A stretch of DNA of 27,799 nt, from NCBI GenBank assembly GCA_027596035.1, contig JADGJA010000247.1, forward strand, positions 1-27,799. The letters are read 5' to 3'. Of this stretch, positions 369 through 27,758 are shown piece after piece. The stretch is from Thoreauomyces humboldtii. Its lineage: Eukaryota; Chytridiomycota; Chytridiomycetes; Spizellomycetales; Powellomycetaceae. The translations under genes and the position numbers were made by a program. The notes below the pieces were generated by a model. The model was not told the origin of the DNA, searched no databases, and was given only the letters and a program-made list of their open reading frames with translations. Positions within the stretch are counted from its first letter, which is position 1. Each line of letters begins with the position of its first letter.

Positions 369-1713
369 ATGACCATCACACCCAGGGCCGTTGGGGCAGC
401 GATCCTGATCTTTTGTGTCGTCAGTGTTTGGGCGGCAGAGCCAGCGGAAGAAAAGGCCTTCAACCTATTTGTGAGTGCCTTCACTGACGCTGGTTGTCGA
501 GGATATCTCTGATTCGCTTCCAATCGAAACAGTCCTACTCGCTGACCGCTCCGTATGTTGAGGAAAACCTGCAAAACAAGTGGTTTGACTTCAATGGAGA
601 CACATACTTGGAAGTCAACAACTACGTCCGACTGACGGTGAGGTGGAAATGCGAAGCGTCCTGTCAGGAAGGTCAACGCATAACTTTCCGTTTGTACGCA
701 GTCTGAGAAGCGAAGTCAGCGAGGAAATTTATGGTCAAAAAGTCCCCTCACGGCCACATCCTGGATGGTCGACTTTGAGTTCAAGGTTCACGGGTCGAGT
801 GCCGGACTTCACGGGGATGGTTTCGCGTTCTGGTACACAGTATGAAATCAAAGTCGATGGTTCGCGGAAATGTACTGGCTGTGATCTAAAGCGCGTCATC
901 GGTCTTTTAGACCCGCAAGAACACCGTGGGACCCGTTTTTGGATCGGAAGACAAGTTCGGAGGTCTTGGAGTGTTTTTCGACACGGTACACGGGCGGACG
1001 CACGGAACGAATCTCGTCCGCCTCGCTGATTGCTTTTTGTCTTGCATCAGTACGCAAACGGGGGCAACAAGCATTCGTTTCCCCGAATCAATGCGATGAT
1101 CGGCGACGAAGTGCAGAAGTACGACCATGACAATGACGGGCAGGCTTGGGAAGTTGGGTCATGTCAGGCCGAGTTCCGGAATCGAGAACATTCCACGAAG
1201 GGGAGGGTGCGATACGTTCGAGAGACAAAGACCCTGAGTGTATTCCACTCGCTAAAAGGAAGCGACGCGCCCGAGGACTGGAAGTTGTGCTTCGAAGCAA
1301 AGACGGTCAATCTGCCTACCTCTGGGTATCTCGGGTTCTCTGCTCATACAGGCGACGTATCCGACATGCACGACATCATCAGCGTCAAGACGCAAGGGAT
1401 AAGTTTTGTGAGCATACTCGGATGGCTGCTTGCGTTCAGTTGCTCGTGGTACTCATGCATATCTATGTAGTCCGGCAAGCCACCTGGCTCGCAGTCTGGC
1501 GAGGTAGATGATTCAGTCAAGAAAGTATCATCAGATTCGGCTGGGTCTGGGGCACCGGTTGCCGCTTCCGTCGGAAAGGGCGATAGTACGGGCGGCGGGC
1601 TAATCTGGAGCTTCGTGAAGTTCATGTTGGCAATCGCGATCATCGCGGCGGTTTGCTATGGAGCGTGGATGTACGCGCAGAGAAACCAAGACCGCTCTTT
1701 CAAGCGGTTCTGA
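369..1713 (+). CDS. L-type lectin, VIP36/VIPL-like cargo receptor (six exons)
   Basis: The product is a type I membrane lectin of the early secretory pathway, expected to bind high-mannose glycoproteins between ER and Golgi. I read six exons, all joined in phase 0: 369-470, 533-637, 702-839, 911-985, 1051-1407 and 1471-1713, giving about 339 residues. A signal peptide (residues 1-22, ending VWAA) precedes the lectin fold. Recognisable blocks are NKWFDFNGD, GLHGDGFAFWYT, GPVFGSEDKFGGLGVFFDTY, FPRINAMIGD, YDHDNDG and GYLGFSAHTGDVSDMHDI. These hold the calcium- and sugar-binding Asp, Asn and His positions of the family. A Ser/Gly-rich stalk leads to one membrane segment (KFMLAIAIIAAVCYGAWMY) and a short tail ending SFKRF. 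That tail resembles the KRFY end of VIP36/VIPL rather than the KKFF of ERGIC-53. No coiled coil follows the lectin domain, which also favours VIP36/VIPL over ERGIC-53. Family assignment is secure; the exact orthologue is less so. Confidence 0.9.
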
Positions 1714-2466: not shown

Positions 2467-2523
2467 CACGTGACCTTCCGGGAGCCCTCGTCAAAAAGAG
2501 AAATGTCCCGGGGGCTATAAAAG
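2467..2523 (+). promoter_or_regulatory. E-box plus TATA-box core promoter
   Basis: CACGTGAC at 2467-2474 is a canonical E-box (bHLH site). TATAAAAG at 2516-2523 is a textbook TATA box. Pyrimidine-rich sequence about 25-35 bp downstream would fit a start near 2545-2555. No long reading frame follows on the + strand, so the promoter seems to drive the non-coding locus downstream. Confidence 0.65.
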
Positions 2524-2734
2524 AGGGTGCCTTCGTCGAGATCTCCCTTCGTCGACGTGCGCGCCCATTCCTCTGTGCCCTTCCTCGAACGCATTTCCCA
2601 CGGCTTCTGGTCTGATGACCCGAACCTGGATCTGCGCCGAGTGAGATGCATACCTGAAGAGCGTGATTATCCATCTAGACTCGTTTTCCCAGCAAGGTAA
2701 GAGAAATCGTCCATTCGGCCGTTCGAAGGGCCAT

Positions 2735-2868
2735 CTCGAACAAGCATTCGAAAGATGATCACAGGCATTTGGTTGTACGGGCCATCCGCGTTATGCGGGG
2801 ACGTCCGGATGATAGAAAAACTCCGAGCTACCTTTATAACTTCATTTCTGACTGCTTGCTTGTTCGAG
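2735..2868 (+). ncRNA. Intron-1 structured RNA, box C/D-like
   Basis: A 12-bp perfect terminal stem (CTCGAACAAGCA at 2735-2746 with its exact complement at 2857-2868) encloses 110 nt. Eight nt inside the 5' arm is ATGATCA (2755-2761), one mismatch from box C (RTGATGA). Five nt before the 3' arm is CTGA (2848-2851), a perfect box D. A second ATGAT near 2809 could be C'. CATCCG (2783-2788) can pair with CGGATG (2806-2811). I could not match the sequence before box D to rRNA from memory, so the target is unknown. Confidence 0.5.
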
Positions 2869-3028
2869 TCGGCTCCTTCAACGACCTTTCCTGCTTTCGT
2901 CGGAGCGTTGGCTGACCTCTTCTTACTTTCTTGACAAAGGCTGACTGCGTGACTACATCGCATGCTTGTGAAATGCTGCGCTAGCTTTCTGGTAAGAGAA
3001 TCTTTCTCCACATCCTCACGATGTTCGG

Positions 3029-3148
3029 CGTGAAGAGTCGCGAAGATGATATCTGAGATGATAGGGACATCATAGCGAAAGCAATGCTGATCATCCACTA
3101 AAAAGACAATTTTGGAGACATTATTGATCGAATGAGCGACTCTTCACG
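3029..3148 (+). ncRNA. Intron-2 structured RNA with 13-bp terminal stem
   Basis: CGTGAAGAGTCGC (3029-3041) is exactly complementary to 3136-3148 and encloses 94 nt. ATGATAT just inside the 5' arm keeps the TGAT core of box C. The matching box D position reads ATGA rather than CTGA, and two internal CTGA sequences lie at about 3053 and 3086. Its position in the intron mirrors that of the intron-1 element, which supports a functional RNA. Whether it is a true C/D snoRNA is less certain than for the first element. Confidence 0.42.
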
Positions 3149-3358
3149 ATCCCATGTCCCTGCTCTTGCTTGCATCGATCGTTTCGACTAACCTATCCGT
3201 TTGTCTCTTGCAAGCAGATGCTTTCCGAGGATGTGAATGTAACCTCTTCCTTCCTTCGCCTGGACATTGATCATCTTCTGTGTCGGACCACACGTTTTGC
3301 TTACCGCAAGCGCGTGCTCCGTCCCTCGACATGATCATTGAGCATTCCCCTCATCCAC

Positions 3359-3486
3359 ATGCGGGCATTCTCTCTTCCAAACGATGACATACACATCTGA
3401 CACCTCTTATCGTAGCGCGGACTCACACCTGCGCGATGCATAGAACAAACCCCATACCTGATGGAACTTGAGAGAAACGCCCGCAT
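3359..3486 (+). ncRNA. Third stem-bounded element, box C/D-like
   Basis: The closing stem is compound: ATGCGGGC (3359-3366) with GCCCGCAT (3479-3486), then TTCTCTC (3368-3374) with GAGAGAA (3470-3476), then TTCC (3375-3378) with GGAA (3463-3466). That makes 19 pairs interrupted by two small bulges. Right inside it are ACGATGA (3381-3387, one mismatch from box C) and CTGA (3458-3461, box D). CTGA at 3397-3400 and CGATG at 3434-3438 could serve as D' and C'. I could not place good flanking splice sites, so it may be processed from an exon or from a third intron. Confidence 0.48.
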
Positions 3487-3514
3487 TTTGAGATTGGATC
3501 ACCTAGACTACGCT

Positions 3515-3561
3515 ACGCCGTGAGCTGTCAGCCTTCTGGCTGTTCAGCTCGCGGCGTTTTT
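3515..3561 (+). terminator. Strong hairpin followed by T5
   Basis: ACGCCG-t-GAGCTG-t-CAGCC pairs across a TTCT loop with GGCTG-tt-CAGCTC-g-CGGCGT. This gives 17 Watson-Crick pairs in three helices separated by small mismatches. TTTTT ends at 3561, overlapping the last base of the stem. It sits 29 nt after the third element. It could be a 3'-end or processing signal of the small-RNA transcript, a pol III-type terminator, or the last stem-loop of an RNA. The structure is seen; the function is inferred. Confidence 0.4.
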
Positions 3562-3719
3562 CTATTTCTGTGTTTTGGGCACGGGGCGGGACAGTCGAGT
3601 GAGAAGCTGCAAGGCGAATCATGCGCCGCAACTTATGAGCAGCGTCATGGAATACTCGGGGAGAATTGATATGGTTGTATCAGAAAAAATGTCAAAGAAT
3701 GATGTGGAAACTACGGTGA

Positions 3720-6700
3720 TCAGGTGTCATCCTGCATGATGACTGAACCTCCTTCCACCGGTACTTCCTTGACCGGTAGCGGTTTCTCTAGCGATGGGCG
3801 CGGCGGCTCGATTGTTTGGGTTTCCACCGGTTCCGCGATACCGTTCGAGGTTTGTCCCGCCGGCTGTTGCGTCGTTGTCGGAGTTGGGAACAGCTCCGAC
3901 CGAAGTGTAGGCAGGAAAGTGTCGACATACTCCCAGGTAGGTCCCCACAAGTTTGGCTTGATGTAGGTCATCGTTTGTTGTTCGCTTGGTGGTTGGAAGA
4001 TGCCCTGCGTAGACATGACTAGGAGCATGTTCTTGAGCGACTCTTGAACGCCTTCCCTCTTTCGTTTCAGAGATTTGGAAAGTAAGACTCGCCGTTGAGC
4101 AGGTTGAGAGAAGTCGAGTTGATACATACCAAATAATCCGATCCTCCGGCCTGCATGTACTTTCGCATCAGCTCCAGAATCTTTCCCCAGAGCTGCGGCA
4201 GATCCTCCCACTCGTGGATGTGTGGGAAGTACTGCAGGAAGATCTTGCAAAGAAGGGCGGCGGCTCGCATCCTCGTCTCGTCCATGCCCATCGGATCCAG
4301 CCGGGTCATTTCGGGTCGGAGAAGCTCGTCCAACATGGGAAAGAGCACATTCTCGAAGCAGTCGGCCCAGATCTCTGGCGAGGATTGCCCCTGGCAACCC
4401 TGCTCGAGTTCCGAGGACAGGAGGGCACGCTGGAGGTGGGCGAGCGCGTACTGCCGGACCTCACGCGCGGGGTGGTAAGCCTGTTGACTCAACCCGGATA
4501 GGACTGGCAACCAAAACTCAAAGAACCCTGATGAGGTTGTTAGTGGATGAGCAAGTACTTCACCTTTCAGATTGTCGTTTTGGCCCACTCACCTCGCTTG
4601 ATCTTCATATCAGACTTCTCCATTAGCCCTGGAATGGCGTAATGTAAGCGAAAGAGCTTATCTAGAGCTCGCAGTGCTTGATCAACTGCTCCCTGATTGG
4701 CTGAACTAAAGTTACATTGACCATGTGTGAGTAAGTAAGAATTCAAACACATGATTACGGAAAGCTTCGAACCTTCGCGCAGCAAGATTATCCCGACTGC
4801 CCAAGACCGGGCTTCCGGGGCTGCTTCCCGCTGCCAGAAGCCCCGGGTTCAGCGGACTGGAGGCGCTACGCACACTCGGGGAGGCGTTACCCATTCCAGC
4901 AGGCACGAGTCGCGCGGCGGCAGCGTAGCTAATTAGGAGATCCACGCACTCGCCAAAGTTCTCGCCATTCACGACCGAATCGGCAGGCTTGTCCGAAATA
5001 AGAATGCAGGCGATCTCGAAACTCGTGCGCGAGGCTTCTGGATGGGGACCGGCTCGCGCAACGAGGTTGAAAATAACGTCCCAATGTAAGTCCCGGGACA
5101 CAATGGTGAGATCAGACTTGAAGATGGCCAGAAGCCCGGACATGGTTTGTTCTGCGATGGCATTGAAGATGTCCTGCGGTACGGTCAATACCAGCGAGAG
5201 GGCCGAGACGATTTGGGAAACGATGTCATCCTACGAGAACAGATCAGTGAGATGCTTTTCCCTTGAAGAGGTGCTGAGTTCGAGTGGATACCTTGTGGCC
5301 AACTCGAAGGATCAGCTGCAAAAGACTGACAACTGCCCTTTCGATGAGCACAATGTTCTGTGCGGCTGACGTTTGAAGGATTGTAGTTATGTGCTGCAAA
5401 GTCCTTGGCCATGTCACGGATATACGGTCACGATTATGGATGTTGATGGCGACCAAAAGCTCCAACAGGAAAACAGCGGCCACGTCAAACTTCAAAGGCT
5501 GAGCTGGTTGCTCGCTCAGGGGCTTCTCCTCCGTAGGCTCTGCTTTGGTGGCAGACTCGAACTCGGTCGGTCCTCGTTCTTGTTGAGCAAACGAAGCTTG
5601 AGCGAGGGAGTCGATCAGGAACTTGAGAGTGGCTTCTTCCAAGAACCTGCGCAACGATCGTCAGCTCGCGTCGTCTAGGATGATGTGATCTGCAGACTCA
5701 CCGTGTGTCGGAGAGCAGGACCTCAATTTTGCAGGACGCAACGCAATGACGAGCTTTCCGTTGACTTTCGATTTCTTCTGGCGTTGCCTCGTAATCGGCC
5801 CAATCGTCTCCAGAGCTCGAGCTCAAAGATAGAAAATTGGATAAGGTGGAGAAGAGTCCTGCTTCCCGCTTTGCGGAGGTTGCAGGTGTAGAACGCGTGA
5901 CCTTAGTTAACTCAGGAACCCGCGGGATGACAATGGAACCCCGCACAAAATCCTCGGCTGTGATCATAGAGTTTGGAAGGAGCATGTGCAGATACATGTT
6001 GCGAACGCAGGCAATGACCTAAACTTTTGGCATTAGATCTTACGGCATGAACTGAAGAGGCACTGTCCCAACTCCCAACGTACCCAACGCCACCCGCTGA
6101 GCAGACTTGTGCCAAACTCGTCTACGAGCCCAAACATGAGAGCGGCTGCGACCTGACTGCGGTAGTTTCGGCCAACCTCGACGCACCAGGGATCCACGAA
6201 CTTGGATTCCCGTTCTTTCTTGGTGTCCAAGTTAAGGATTTCTGGTGGGAGTCGTCGACTTTCTTTCAAAAAGCCAGTCATCTTCGAGAGGGCGACGATG
6301 ATCGAGTCAAAGAGCTCGGAAATCTCATAGTAAGCAGCAATCGTCGAGCAGTGATGAAAACCAACGATTGCCTTCTGCAACGTCAGCTCCTCTTCCGCGT
6401 TGTCAAAGGCTTTCGAGTAGAACAATTACACATTGGTTAAAGAAATGTGCAAAGAGCACAAGAGAACCTAGACTTACCGTAAGACAAAGCTGCGAGGATC
6501 GGACTCCAAGCCACAACCAGCATATCTTTGTCGCACGAGTTTTTTTCGTACTTGATCAGAGGACCGCAAGTCTCCGAGCGCTTCATGAGTTCCTTCCAGT
6601 GGTAATTGAAACTCAATTCGCCCTCGTGTTCCTCGGGAAGAACTATCTCGTTGTCCTTGATGTTGTTATATATTTGTGTCTATTGCAGATTCGTTAGCGT

Positions 6701-10796: not shown

Positions 10797-12959
10797 TCAG
10801 GTTATAGTGTTGGCGACATGCGTAACGGAGGTGACTCGTTCAGGCTTCTCAGCTCGCTTGAGCAGCGCAGCAGCATCGTGATGACCAGAGTGGTGCGTCA
10901 CCGTGACAATTTCGTAGGCGACTATCACAAAGAAGAGTGTGAGTAATAAACTCTGCGGGCTCCTCGAAGATGGCTACGTAAACGTACCTTCTCCCATTTC
11001 GCTCAAGTCATTTCCCTCGTTGTGCTCGTCATCCTTTGGTCGAACATGCATTCCTGGTATCTTGTCGATGAAAAACAGGAGGATGAGGGAGAGGAAAAAG
11101 GACCACGCAGCAATCGATGTAGATCCTGCGAGCTGGTAACCGACTTGTCGCCAATTTCCGTCAATCCAGCCGCCTGCAATGACCGAACCGTCAAGCTCTC
11201 CGATCCTGGAGATAGAAACAGGGTAATAATCTAATCCAAGCCGATTCCAAGGAGAACCCCGCTTGAGCCAAGCCCTCACCATTGTTCCGCAAAAACTCCC
11301 GTCAATATTCCCCCCACGTAACCTTAGGGTAATCTTAGGGCATGAGCGTACATATGATAGTTTGGTACCTTTCAAACACTCACCACCAACCCCGTGGACC
11401 CCCCACGTATCGAGACTATCGTCGAACCCAGCCATCGTCTTGATACGGCACGCAATGTTGCAGCACACCGCTGTTACCGCCCCAATTACGATGGCAGCCC
11501 ATGGAGCAACGTAGCCTGCCGCTGGTGTGATGCCAACCAATCCTTCGAAAGCCAAAATGCAACGTCAGCAGATGGGATTGAAAGTAGGCAGCAACGCCAA
11601 ACATGCAGTAGCGCGCTTAGCACTTTGTGCCTATGACGTACCTGCAACAGCACCAGCGCAATAACCCATGCCAGAAAGCTTCTTGTGACGCACCTAAACA
11701 GAGTAATTGATATCAAGGTCAACAGGGAACTTATCCGAAATCTTGAGTAGTATGTGCACTTACATAGTCATATGCAACCCAGGATAAGGAGCCAGATGCG
11801 GCAGCGACAGTGGTAACGACTCCAGCCATAGCCGCACGAGGTGTCGCTGCAAGGGCAGATCCCGCATTGAATCCGTACCAGCCGTACCATAACAGAGCAA
11901 GCCCCAAGAATACATTGGTCATGTTGTGAGCTTTGAAAGGTTCCTCAGTTCGGTGACGCTTCCCGACCATGATGCAATAGGCGAGACCTGCCAACGGGTA
12001 ATCACCGATTGAGAAATACCGCTTTACTTGCCCATCCCACCCTCTCTGTTCATCTTCTTACCACTAAATCCGGAGGCGATGTGGACCGGGCCGCCGCCGG
12101 CAAAATCATAACCTCCTATTCCGCAGGGGGCCGCGCTCGTCAAAGTATCCAAACATGACAGGGACTTGATCCATCCGTTTTTGGACCACGTCCAATATGC
12201 TGTATAAGTGCAGCAGATATGTTACTAAGTTCGCCTTTGAACCCTGCCCATGCTCATAGCTCATACCGACTGGATTGTACACAATCGTGGACCTGTCGAA
12301 AGAGCGCTTCTTTAGCTCTGGTTTTCGCTTCCACTTTTCGAGACGGGAGATACCATAGGAATATGAAGAGCATGGCAGGCATCAGCCGAATGCGCTCGGC
12401 CACTGAACCGAAGATCAAGGCCGAGGTGATGGTGGCGAATTGCATCTATGCAGAAGAAGGAGGTTGGTAAATCATAGCTGAGATCGCTCTAGAGTTTCTT
12501 CACTTGTAAACTACCTGGTAGAGCGCGAACAAGATTCCAGGTATCTGCGGGGCTGTCATAGGCAGAGAGCTCATTCCTAAGTTCCTAAATCCCGCCATGT
12601 GGAAATCTCCAATGAATCGGCCACCGGTTTCTGAGAAAGACAGACTTTCCATGGAACAAGCATCAGAAACCGCAGTTCATGGATCAAGGAATGCACGCGG
12701 ACGGTTACCTGAAGCCAAAGAGCACCCATTGTATGGTGATGATTGACATCGCCAGCATGGTTACCATGATCAGAGACAAGGCGTTCTTGGTCCTAGACAT
12801 TCCAGAGTAGAACAGTCCGAGTCCTGGTGTCATGATCCAGACCAAGGCGGAGCATATGAGGATGAACGCGACAGAAGCATAACCCGTCTCAATGAAAGGA
12901 GTATCGCCGCCGTCGGTTCCTGGATTGAGTATTGCTGTTCCGGCATATGTAACCGACAT
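10797..12959 (-). CDS. Ammonium transporter, Amt/Mep family
   Basis: This is a plasma-membrane ammonium channel/transporter with about 11 membrane segments. Exon 1 (from 12959) gives the extracellular N-terminus and the first segments, including TPGLGLFYSGMSRTKNALS. After splicing, the sequence runs through LSFSETGGRFIGDFHMAG and MQFATITSALIFGSVAERIR to the family signature YDFAGGGPVHIASGFSG. NVFLGLALLWYGWYGFNAGS and DTWGVHGVGG follow. Both pore histidines are present, in GGGPVHIASG and GVHGVGG. The last intron begins GTACGT after SEMGE. The final exon then supplies a cytosolic tail ending HVANTIT, with its stop at 10797. About ten short introns interrupt the gene. The join after GYVGGILTGVF, before LDGSVIAGGW, is ambiguous by a few codons. 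A short Cys-containing stretch precedes the signature. The gene is divergent from the MYCBPAP-like gene, and I found no GATAA nitrogen-control element in their shared 375-bp spacer. Confidence 0.93.
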
Positions 12960-22945: not shown

Positions 22946-24427
22946 TCACTTGACGTTCTCGGGTCGGAGACCGCGGACGGTCTTGCCCGCTCGCCACATC
23001 TCGCTCTCGCGGATGACGCGCAGCTCCTCCTCGAGACGCTCTCGGTAGTCCGGCCGAGAGTTCTCGACCAGACTGCGGCGAGTCTCGGATCCGTCCTCGA
23101 CGGCTGCATACAGGGCCTCGAACACGGGCTTGGTGGCATCGTAGAACTTGGGCGCCCAGTCGAGGGCACCTCTGCGTGCGGTCGTGGAGCAGTTGGCGTA
23201 CATCCAATCCATACCCTGTGAGAAAGACGAGGAAGTGAGTGACTGCGCTCCAAAGATAGCACAGTTCCCATTGGTTACTTACGTTTTTGGAGATGAGAGG
23301 GTAGAGCGACTGGGTAGCTTCCTCGACGGTCTCGTTGAATGCTTCCGATGGCGAGTGTCCCTTTGCGCGCAGGACATCGTATTGGGCCGCGAAGGCTCCC
23401 TGGATGGCGCCCATCAGGATGCCGCGCTCGCCGACGAGATCAGAGTGGACTTCCTTCTCGCTATTGATCGGAGAGGAGAGAAACCGGTAAGAAAGTGTTC
23501 GCTGTCGACAAAGGGATAGCATTGCAAAGATACTCACAAGGTGGTCTCGTACAGGTAACCGCTTCCGATAGCGACACCCATGGCGAAAGCACGATCCCGG
23601 GCCTCGCCTGAAGCGTCCTGCCAGATGGCGACGGACGAGTTGATGCCGCGGCCCTCCAGGAACAGGGATCGAACGGTGGCTCCGCTGCCCTTTGGTGCGG
23701 CGAGGATCACGTCGACGTCCTTGGGTGGGACGACGCCGGTCTGGTCGTGGAAGACGACGCTGAATCCGTGAGAAAAGTACAGCGTCTTTCCCTTGGTGAC
23801 GTGGGGCTTGAGGGCAGGCCACCCTTGCTTCTGGCCGGCGTCCGAGAGCAGGTTCATGAGGACGGTGCCCTTCTCGGCGGCCTCCTCGATCGTGAAGAGG
23901 GTCTTGCCCTCGACCCATCCGTCCTTCTTGGCGGCCTCCCAGGAATGTCCTCCCTTGCGGACGCCGACGATGACCTTGAGCCCATTGTCGCGAAGGTTGA
24001 GGGACTGTGCAAAGCCTTGCGTTCCGTAGCCGAGGACGGCGAACGTGTCCTTGGCAAAGATCTTGTGGAGCTTTTCCTTGGGGAAGTCGGCGCGTTCCCA
24101 GACGGTCTCTTTCGAGCCTCCGAAGTCAAGAGTCTTCACTCCTCGGGACTGCAGAAACTAAGGGAAACAGGAAAACACTTGTAAATGAGCGGTTCTGATC
24201 TCCAAGATTGCAGCTGGCCATTGCCCTCGCAAGACTGCCAGGGGCTCGGAACAGAAGGGACTCACTGTGGAAGAAGCGGCTGCAATAGAGGCAGATGGCC
24301 TGGATGCTCTCGTTGGTCGCGCAGCAGCAGCGATGGTGGTGATTGAGCGAGCTGCTGCGGTCGAGCGCCTTGCAGCGACGCTGCCGGTTGCTCGAGCGGT
24401 TGAAGCGATGTATCGTGTAGCGTTCAT
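22946..24427 (-). CDS. ILV5: Ketol-acid reductoisomerase, mitochondrial
   Basis: The enzyme converts acetolactate and acetohydroxybutyrate, with NADPH and magnesium, in the second common step of valine, isoleucine and leucine synthesis. It acts in the mitochondrial matrix. Exon 1 encodes a presequence (MNATRYIASTARATGSVAAR and more Arg/Ser/Ala, no acidic residues). After an intron of about 105 nt comes FLQSRGVKTLDFGGSKETVW. The nucleotide-binding motif FAVLGYGTQGFAQSLNLRD is followed by GVRKGGHSWEAAKKDGW, YFSHGFSVVFHDQTGVVPPK and DVDVILAAPKGSGATVRSLF. The metal-binding region LYETTFEKEVHSDLVGERGI then GAIQGAF spans an intron joining in phase. The last exon starts GMDWMYANCSTTARRGALDW and ends KTVRGLRPENVK. 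All expected blocks and the roughly 400-residue length agree with fungal Ilv5. A TATA box on this strand (24549-24556) lies about 120 bp upstream. Confidence 0.96.
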
Positions 24428-25048: not shown

Positions 25049-25842
25049 CTAAACCACCCGACCGACGTACTCCACGTTCCTCACTCGTTCCATCTCCCAC
25101 TGCACCAGGAACCGATCCACAAAGTACCAGGACAGCTTCCCCGTCAACGACAAGCCGCCCACCCGTGCCCAGCTCTCCACGTACACCAAGCGCGGGGCCG
25201 ATGCGGCGCCCACCAGCACGCGCGGGAGGAACGACAGGAGCAGGATGGGCAGCGCCGTGCCCGGACCGTTGGAGATGACGAGGTTCGGGCGGGCGGCCGT
25301 CAGGATCCGCACGCTAGCGACGCTTGCCCGCAGGAAGCTGAGCGGCGTGGTGAGGTACGATTGGTGCACGCTACGCGCTCTCGGTATCTTGTCGATGAAG
25401 AACTAGACGGGGAAACGGACAACACAACGGATAGTGAGAAGGAACGGGTTTGGCTGAAGCGGTTTCCCCCCCGCGCCGCAGTCCCGAGGGGGAAAAACGA
25501 GAACAAGTGTGTGTTGCTGACATCTCTGTTTAGCGTGCCACCGCGGGCTGCCTCGAACTTTATCGCCTTGCCGTAGCTTCCCGCGTCCGTGTCCGCCATC
25601 AGGTAATGCCGAGGGGTGTAACGGTCCGTCGCCAGGGTCTCTAGCATCCTGAGCATCTCCGTGGTGTGTCCTCCTGAACCGAGCACGATGCACGTCCTGC
25701 AGACGCTCCTGCGGGTCGTTCTGCGTGGAGGAGGCCGAGGCCGATGACGATACGGTAGAATCAGCCATATCCGAAGGAGGATCAACAGAGGCAGAAGGAG
25801 GGTCAGGAAGACGAGAATCGGCAATGGTTCCACCATCATCAT
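25049..25842 (-). CDS. ALG14: UDP-GlcNAc transferase membrane-anchor subunit Alg14
   Basis: Alg14 anchors the catalytic Alg13 at the ER and helps bind the dolichol acceptor for the second step of lipid-linked oligosaccharide synthesis. From 25842 the protein opens with [20 protein letters not shown], a membrane anchor, and then a Pro/Arg-rich patch. The hallmark [15 protein letters not shown] is followed by [17 protein letters not shown]. One intron (donor GTCAGC, acceptor CGTCTAG) joins LNRD to [17 protein letters not shown]. The second hallmark [14 protein letters not shown] and then [20 protein letters not shown] and [10 protein letters not shown] complete the fold, with the stop at 25049. 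About 225 residues is usual for Alg14. The donor is non-standard (GTCAGC), but phase and conserved sequence on both sides support it. No Alg13 domain is fused to it. Confidence 0.93.
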
Positions 25843-26024
25843 CGTTGGGTTCGCGAAGCACGCCCTTCGTTTCAAAGAGTCACAGTGCGGGCGGAAAGGC
25901 AAAGGGGGAAGATCCTGGCGTTTCCCGCGTCCGATCTCCTCGGACAAAAAAGATTCCGCTTTCCGGATTTTCCTCGCTCTCGCAGGCTGTGAGTTCCCAC
26001 CGATATCGTACGGCAAAGTGCGCA
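25843..26024. promoter_or_regulatory. Shared divergent promoter, ALG14 / COX15
   Basis: Only 182 bp separate the two start codons. No TATA box is visible on either strand. Confidence 0.5.
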
Positions 26025-27758
26025 ATGTCGACTCCACTGGGCAGTCGGTTGGTCGAGGCCATCGGTCGCATCTCTTCCGTGCGATTCCCCTCGGTACGTC
26101 TCTCATGTCGTTCCACACGTCCAACGTGCTCGCGGTCACCGCCTGCACGCTCCTTTACCCGCCTTCCGGCATATCCCACTTCCCCACCGCCATGCCTTGC
26201 GTCTCGAACACCTTCGCCGCTTCTAGCTCGCCTTTCTCAGCTGTCACAGATTCGTAGCGTATCGGGAGCCAGCGTGTCCCAGCCTTCGACGTTGACAGGA
26301 CCCGCCGCTCCCGTCGGAGTATCTACGGAACCACCACCCCTGGGCGAGGAGCAGGAGGAAACGCCCAGCAAACCCATCGTTGGATGGTGGTACCTTTTCT
26401 CGGGATCCTTGGTGTTCGGGATCGTGGCATTGGGAGGCTTCACCCGTCTGACCGAGAGCGGACTCTCGATCGTCGAGTGGAACCTCATCAAGGGCATGAG
26501 ACCGCCAAGATCGCAGCAGGAGTGGGAGGAGGAGTTCGATAAGTACAAGCAGTTTCCCGAATACAAACTGTACGCCCTCGCCCTCAGGGACGTTTGTTCC
26601 CTGCTCCTCCTCTGAGGTTTAACGCATTGTGTGGTCATCGATAGGCTCAACCACAACATCACGCTGGCCGAGTTCAAGTCCATCTTCTACATGGAGTGGG
26701 CTCACCGCATGGTCGGAAGGTTCATCGGCATGGCGTTTGTGATCCCCGGCGCCTACTTCGCGTACAAGGGATACATGACCCGGACGATCCGCAATCGGTC
26801 GCTTCTGGTGGCGACGCTCATCGGTGGACAGGTAAGAAATCGCACATTTACTAAACTGGCAAAGGAGGGCATCCGGAAGCTGAAGAGTCTTTGCGCATTG
26901 TCAGGGGCTCTTGGGTTGGCTCATGGTCAAGAGCGGCCTCTCTGACGACCTGATGGAGAAGGCCCATGCCGTCCCCCGTGTCAGTCACTATTGGCTGGCG
27001 GCCCACCTCTGTTCTGCATTTACCATCTATTCCATCATGCTCGTTACCGGTTTGGACATCCTCCGATCCAACAAGACCAAGGCGGTTGCCTCGGTCAAGG
27101 CTGCACTCGCCGGGATGGATGTGCGCAAGTTTGGCAGGTACGCAAAGGGCGTGTCGGCACTGGTTCTGCTTACGGCCATGTCAGGTAAGCAGAGGCACGA
27201 TGTTTGGCACAGAGTCTGAGAGATTTCGATTCTGACACTCTCAACTACTGGACGAAGGCGCGTTTGTTGCTGGACTGGACGCAGGTCTCATCTACAATGA
27301 ATTCCCGTACATGGGTGAGGGCATCGTACCATCCGATATGTGGGCATTATCCACCGAAACACCTCGCAACCCCAATCCCGTCCCATGGTGGAAGAACCTA
27401 TTGGAAAACCCCTCGGCCGTGCAGTTCAACCACAGAGTCATGGTGAGAAAGGGTCACGTTAGGCTGTGCGATCGATCAGCCAATGTCTGATACTGCTTGT
27501 CCATTAACTCAGGCCATGACCACGACGACAGCTGTCACCGGTCTTTGGCTGTATTCGCGCAAAGTGAGACTCCCACCAAACGCCCGGCTCGCCGTCAATT
27601 GTCTGCTTGGCATGGTCGGTGTTCAAGTGGCTCTCGGTATCAGCACCCTCCTCTATTTCGTACCGACCCCGCTGGCAGCTGCTCACCAGAGCGGGTCGTT
27701 GACCCTTTTGTCAATCTCACTGTGGCTCGTACATGCGCTTCGCTACGTGAAGCGATAG
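26025..27758 (+). CDS. COX15: Heme A synthase, mitochondrial (Cox15)
   Basis: Cox15 oxidises heme O to heme A in the inner mitochondrial membrane for cytochrome c oxidase. Start is placed at 26025 ([20 protein letters not shown]), opening a long Arg/Ser/Pro-rich targeting region. [20 protein letters not shown] with [13 protein letters not shown] is the family signature in the first membrane segment. The first intron (GTACGC...GATAG) joins YKL to [100 protein letters not shown] and [19 protein letters not shown] follow. The four His expected as heme ligands are visible (WAHR, AAHL, FNHR, AHQ). Eight membrane segments and about 470 residues fit the eukaryotic family. Four introns, all phase-consistent. 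The exact N-terminus is the least certain part. Confidence 0.95.

Follow-up and report, generated by a model that had tools for sequence, protein, structure and literature searches.

C/D guide RNAs carry box C (consensus RUGAUGA) and box D (CUGA) near their ends, which are joined by a stem. The two boxes follow the kink-turn rule of a three-base bulge plus tandem G-A, and Snu13 normally holds the flipped-out U of the box C kink-turn. Fungal polycistronic hosts of such RNAs resemble animal UHG/GAS5. Polycistronic, intron-bearing, non-coding snoRNA hosts have been described from ascomycetes, basidiomycetes and a zygomycete (PMC3596301; PMC2780460), and the Neurospora account includes an exon-encoded member of a snoRNA cluster (PMC2780460). 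Three of the families listed in Table 1 of that account are relevant here: snR13, with the homologue CD1 (125 nt, intronic, D' guide, 10/0 match), snR64/U74, with CD36 (90 nt, intronic, D' guide, 10/0 match), and snR48, with the intergenic CD8. PMC3511168 tabulates modification sites that eukaryotes share, and all three are included. Both snR13 and snR48 are known for one guide marking two bases; for yeast snR13, extra pairing beside the target and a D' box readable as UCGA or CUCGA lead to methylation of two adjacent bases (PMC5389607).

The window analysed here is a stretch of 27,799 nt of Thoreauomyces humboldtii DNA. The stems, boxes, guide complementarity, guide register and splice-like motifs discussed below can be read directly from its letters. 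The best explanation, to which we assign a probability of about 0.9, is that the locus holds a putative non-coding host gene with two intronic C/D snoRNAs, one snR13-like and one snR64/U74-like, followed by an snR48/U60-like one in the last exon or in a separate unit (Table 1). A sequence-only reading had already proposed a small non-coding C/D snoRNA host gene, and our analysis supports this view: boxes C, D', C' and D are present, the candidate guides address known sites in the register of their homologues, and there is no long frame. That reading recognized both intronic small RNAs and missed a third, here called element 3, at about 3376-3463. Since fungal hosts of this kind have already been published, the locus is a further case of an established gene type. 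With the clusters described in PMC3596301 (I-III) and PMC2780460 (I-V) it shares a single C/D snoRNA in each intron, short exons that are non-coding and, probably, the occasional member encoded in an exon. Its members differ, however, as clusters I-III of PMC3596301 hold other snoRNAs, and the Neurospora homologues of snR13, snR64 and snR48 are placed on chromosomes III, I and I (PMC2780460). Searches of an open-licence library returned no account of these three in a single unit, and the grouping of snR13-, snR64- and snR48-like members in one locus looks unreported.

Table 1. Proposed features of the locus and neighbouring protein genes, in window positions; the introns are proposed from splice-like motifs in the sequence
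Feature	Position	Strand	Details
TATA-like promoter element	2515-2523	+	CTATAAAAG; letters read directly, putative function for the proposed host gene
Intron 1	2697-2939	+	243 nt, GTAAGA...CTGAC...AAAG
Closing (external) stem of snoRNA 1	2735-2868	+	arms 2735-2746 and 2857-2868; 12 bp, 110 nt enclosed; 5 nt outside boxes C and D
SnoRNA 1, snR13-like	2747-2856	+	boxes and 25S complementarity
SnoRNA 1 box C	2752-2758	+	AAGATGA
SnoRNA 1 D' guide	2763-2772	+	10 Watson-Crick (WC) pairs to 25S 2277-2286
SnoRNA 1 D' box	2774-2777	+	TGTA; alternative TTGTA at 2773-2777
SnoRNA 1 C'-like box	2807-2814	+	GGATGATA
SnoRNA 1 accessory guide	2827-2834	+	8 WC pairs to 25S 2270-2277
SnoRNA 1 box D	2848-2851	+	CTGA
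Exon 2	2940-2991	+	52 nt, non-coding, between the introns; spliced transcript without long frame
Intron 2	2992-3217	+	226 nt, GTAAGA...CTAAC...GCAG
Closing stem of snoRNA 2	3029-3148	+	arms 3029-3041 and 3136-3148; 13 bp around 94 nt; stops 1 nt upstream of box C, resumes right after box D
SnoRNA 2, snR64/U74-like	3038-3140 (outer ends approximate)	+	boxes, 25S complementarity, kink-turn scan
SnoRNA 2 box C	3043-3049	+	AAGATGA
SnoRNA 2 D' guide	3060-3069	+	10 WC pairs to 25S 2334-2343, covering C2337
SnoRNA 2 D' box	3071-3074	+	CATA
SnoRNA 2 C' box	3084-3090	+	ATGCTGA
SnoRNA 2 box D	3132-3135	+	ATGA
Long closing stem of element 3	3359-3486	+	3359-3366/3479-3486, 3368-3374/3470-3476, 3375-3379/3462-3466
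Element 3, snR48/U60-like snoRNA	about 3376-3463	+	snR48 alignment, box-plus-stem scan, rRNA pairing
Element 3 box C	3381-3387	+	ACGATGA
Element 3 guide	3396-3407	+	TCTGACACCTCT; 11 WC pairs to L001 LSU rRNA
Element 3 D' region	3409-3414	+	ATCGTA
Element 3 C' box	3434-3440	+	CGATGCA
Element 3 box D	3458-3461	+	CTGA
Legume-like lectin (Pfam)	1030-1470	+	protein gene near locus
GBF1-like TPR (Pfam)	3720-4588	-	match 3720-4397 just under cut-off
Ammonium transporter (Pfam)	10974-11555	-	protein gene near locus
Acetohydroxy acid isomeroreductase (Pfam)	23534-24139	-	protein gene near locus
COX15/CtaA (Pfam)	25725-26615	+	protein gene near locus

The two introns were said to begin alike, and both indeed start with GTAAGAGAA, a 9-mer that occurs twice on the + strand of the whole window and is absent from the - strand. 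Branch-point-like motifs (CTGAC at 2912-2916, CTAAC at 3188-3192) lie upstream of the 3' ends, which read AAAG at 2939 and GCAG at 3217; the former is non-YAG and the weakest splice signal of the locus. Re-measuring returned the reported spacings: the 5' splice site and the stem are 38 and 37 nt apart, and the stem and the 3' splice site 71 and 69 nt (introns 1 and 2, respectively). From the 5' splice site to box C there are 55 and 51 nt, and from the end of box D to the 3' splice site 88 and 82 nt. The geometry, described as strikingly regular, is nothing unusual, because snoRNAs within introns tend to lie at preferred distances from either splice site, the 5'-side distance in the Neurospora set being mainly 41-60 nt (PMC2780460).

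Each of the two introns thus delimited holds one candidate snoRNA, and the exons were likewise described correctly as lacking a usable reading frame, the spliced transcript having Met-initiated frames of at most 48 aa with outer exon ends assumed at 2545 and 3560. A 143-aa open frame on the - strand (2667-3098), which overlaps both introns, is taken as accidental. Downstream of element 3, a strong hairpin formed by ACGCCGTGAGCTGTCAGCC and GGCTGTTCAGCTCGCGGCG (3515-3561) is followed by five T and looks like an end signal.

Both intronic stems are perfect and of the sizes originally given. The 27.8-kb window contains no further perfect inverted repeat of 12 bp or more whose loop measures 60-150 nt; the same search in 200 dinucleotide shuffles returned a mean of 0.16 and a maximum of 2, with at least one in 31 of the 200. 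Folding is more stable than in shuffled sequence for both, with z-scores of -2.0 for snoRNA 1 (2733-2870; 3 of 200 shuffles fold as well) and -4.5 for snoRNA 2 (3028-3149; 0 of 200).

Guide targets were sought in S. cerevisiae rRNA, which may differ from the host rRNA; its lengths and all listed methylated positions were correct. Site numbers 2280/2281 and 2791/2793 follow PMC5389607, and the table in PMC3511168 numbers the yeast sites otherwise (Am2279, Cm2235, Gm2788). Two further eukaryotic rRNAs, L001 and L002, were taken from contigs filed under bacterial MAGs (PKCZ01000144.1 and JABSRU010000113.1); because eukaryotic rRNA genes lie in these bacterial-filed contigs, the MAGs appear contaminated. 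No eukaryotic LSU rRNA was found in viral contigs.

Intron 2 holds the clearest C/D element of the two introns, which looks like an snR64/U74 homologue (SNORD74, Rfam RF00509 and RF00284; Neurospora CD36) whose D' guide covers Cm2337. A single base separates its 13-bp stem from AAGATGA, and the stem continues immediately downstream of ATGA, a layout that gives the three-base bulge plus tandem G-A of kink-turn geometry. The D' box CATA starts 5 nt downstream of the base that pairs with C2337, as the +5 rule demands, and position 2337 of 25S is a known Cm site (yeast numbering). The element shares with snR64/U74 the 10-bp D' guide, the intronic location, a size of 90-100 nt and an abutting terminal stem. 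It departs from snR64/U74 in its D' box (CAUA, not CUGA), box D (AUGA), box C (AAGAUGA) and Rfam score, which at 15.5 bits (E 2.2) against SNORD74 lies below the gathering score of 41. The target is present in L002, not in L001.

The element of intron 1 looks like an snR13 homologue (Rfam RF01223, clan of U15; Neurospora CD1), its 10-bp D' guide covering Am2280/Am2281, and the target of this guide is also present in L001 and L002. The accessory pairing with 25S 2270-2277 adjoins the guide target 2277-2286, as it does for snR13; 8 pairs within 25S 2257-2306 were reached in 151 of 5,000 shuffles of 2773-2847. The deviant D' box admits a four- or a five-base reading, as in snR13, with TTGTA standing for CUCGA when compared by eye, and the intronic location is shared with CD1. 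In contrast to snR13, the D' box is (U)UGUA where snR13 has (C)UCGA, box C lacks its U, the stem is external rather than abutting, and an Rfam match is absent, no family being returned for intron 1 at E up to 10. A sense-strand control of this element gave three 10-mer rRNA matches, none of them at known methylation sites. Both intronic elements agree with their Neurospora homologues in match length and guide position.

Element 3 is probably a third C/D guide RNA of the locus, judging from its alignment, boxes and pairing. It aligns end to end with Rfam snR48 (RF00471; 26 bits, E 1.3; gathering score 60), and its D' region ATCGTA sits where yeast snR48 has AUGUUA, the conserved D' region of that RNA (PMC5389607). 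The likeness to snR48/U60 extends to a candidate guide for the Gm2791/Gm2793 region, the unusual six-base D' region, a hairpin between D' and C', and a location that, as for CD8, is not evidently intronic; the D' letters (AUCGUA against AUGUUA) differ, the score is below the gathering threshold, and one guide base fits 25S with U at 2797. This base is the single mismatch of the guide to yeast 25S; all 11 pairs to L001 LSU are WC pairs, and L002 ends before the target site. A third intron around the element was rejected, as a pattern search found no consensus 5' splice site in 2992-3599 nor any CTRAY between box D and 3720. Because no consensus splice sites flank it, element 3 is probably exonic or separately transcribed.

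The same observations could be explained if the two intronic elements alone were snoRNAs, element 3 being either a decayed copy or a stem that arose by chance and carries motifs resembling the boxes. The missing splice patterns, the low Rfam score and the guide mismatch, with which the element fails a scan restricted to yeast rRNA, all point in this direction. However, element 3 is one of only two box-plus-stem matches in the window, folds at -42.4 kcal/mol (z -5.4, equalled by 0 of 200 shuffles), aligns with snR48 over its full length, pairs with L001 LSU at the snR48 site and carries its D' region in the corresponding place, and the Neurospora snR48 homologue is listed as intergenic too (PMC2780460). 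We regard a chance or decayed element 3 as unlikely, and retain it as a probable third guide.

The longest unbroken WC run of snoRNA 2 joins 11 bases (3085-3095) to positions 52-62 of yeast U6. It was set aside as probably due to chance, as it overlaps C' and no D-like box was recognized at the right distance. This run would favour C/D snoRNAs whose main targets are other than 25S, e.g. U6, yet the 25S guides are placed as in the homologues, and the U6 52-62 stretch differs in most other fungi, which makes this explanation very unlikely. Also set aside were an 11-bp run between the closing stem of element 3 and 18S 192-202, two runs of 10 bp that element 3 forms with L002, and several runs scoring 9-10 with G-U pairs, some of which overlap box D of snoRNA 1 or snoRNA 2.

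The 25S guides of the preferred host-gene reading were compared with controls. In either intronic element, the stretch from box C to box D contains a single run of 10 WC pairs to yeast rRNA, and both runs span a known methylation site (A2280/A2281; C2337). Such a known-site match arose in 3.0% (snoRNA 1) and 2.2% (snoRNA 2) of 5,000 shuffled elements each, and any 10-mer rRNA match in about 30%. A 10-mer guide match by itself was not accepted as evidence, as the whole window holds 37 known-site matches (17 on the + and 20 on the - strand). A box-plus-stem scan of both strands (C-like box plus CTGA or ATGA, with a stem of 5 bp or more no further than 3 nt away) returned only 3043/3132 (13 bp) and 3381/3458 (5 bp) in the window; snoRNA 1 is absent because its AAGATGA and CTGA each lie 5 nt inside the external stem. 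The box-plus-guide scan of both strands of the 27.8 kb (box C just upstream, guide to a known site, D box downstream) returned only the elements described here, two with yeast rRNA and three, including element 3, with U at 25S 2797. Neither scan gave a - strand snoRNA in the window. In 300 shuffled windows, the box-plus-guide scan gave means of 0.58 (yeast rRNA) and 0.59 (U at 2797) candidates, with at least one in 119. Rfam matched nothing in the whole window at E up to 5; a relaxed search of 871 bases gave three sub-threshold matches, snR48, SNORD74 and a - strand UCA1, the last rejected as chance.

That stems and motifs arose by chance or serve another role, such as long-stem introns aiding splicing or remnants of inverted-repeat mobile elements, would suit the frequency of single motifs and of shuffled stems and candidates, but it is within these elements, and nowhere else in the window, that stems, boxes, guides and register come together, with sizes and guide positions matching the Neurospora homologues. 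We regard this explanation as very unlikely.

On the host-gene reading, the transcript would be non-coding and presumably made by RNA polymerase II. Its introns would be spliced and debranched, after which exonucleases may trim each to a particle assembled on the C/D kink-turn from Snu13, Nop56, Nop58 and Nop1, with the stem holding the two boxes next to each other. 2'-O-methylation in domain V of 25S rRNA would follow, directed by the D' guides, with predicted marks (yeast numbering) at Am2280/Am2281 (snoRNA 1), Cm2337 (snoRNA 2) and Gm2791/Gm2793 (element 3). We infer transcription, splicing, processing and methylation, as well as a host rRNA that is yeast-like at these sites, from sequence features. 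Counted against this reading are the Rfam matches, all below gathering scores with E about 1-2 and none for snoRNA 1, the frequency of candidates in shuffled windows and of plain 10-mer matches in the window, the three matches of the sense-strand control of snoRNA 1, the C boxes without U, the deviant D' boxes, the mismatch of the snR48-like guide and an L001 without the snoRNA 2 target.

Box C deviates from the consensus once in each of the three elements, the D boxes are CTGA, ATGA and CTGA, and the D' boxes depart from CUGA; box C lies 5, 1 and 1 nt from the stem (snoRNA 1, snoRNA 2 and element 3). In 3 of 3 elements, box C takes the form A-[AC]-GATGA and lacks, at the same position, the U of RUGAUGA. 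In the Neurospora account, 86% of C and D boxes are highly conserved (PMC2780460). The kink-turn may have drifted to A-[AC]-GAUGA in this lineage, the flipped-out U held by Snu13 being lost and Snu13 changed to match, with snR13, snR48 and snR64 made from one unit that would coordinate methylation of 25S domain V. We consider this combined proposal doubtful.

The locus has implications for annotation and for guide function. Three probable guide RNAs escape the Rfam thresholds, which shows that fungal snoRNA annotation has a gap. Two of them, of the snR13 and snR48 types, lie at one locus and provide diverged sequences in which the marking of two bases by one guide can be studied. Should the change in box C hold genome-wide, it would provide a natural experiment on how strictly Snu13 depends on the uridine in box C.
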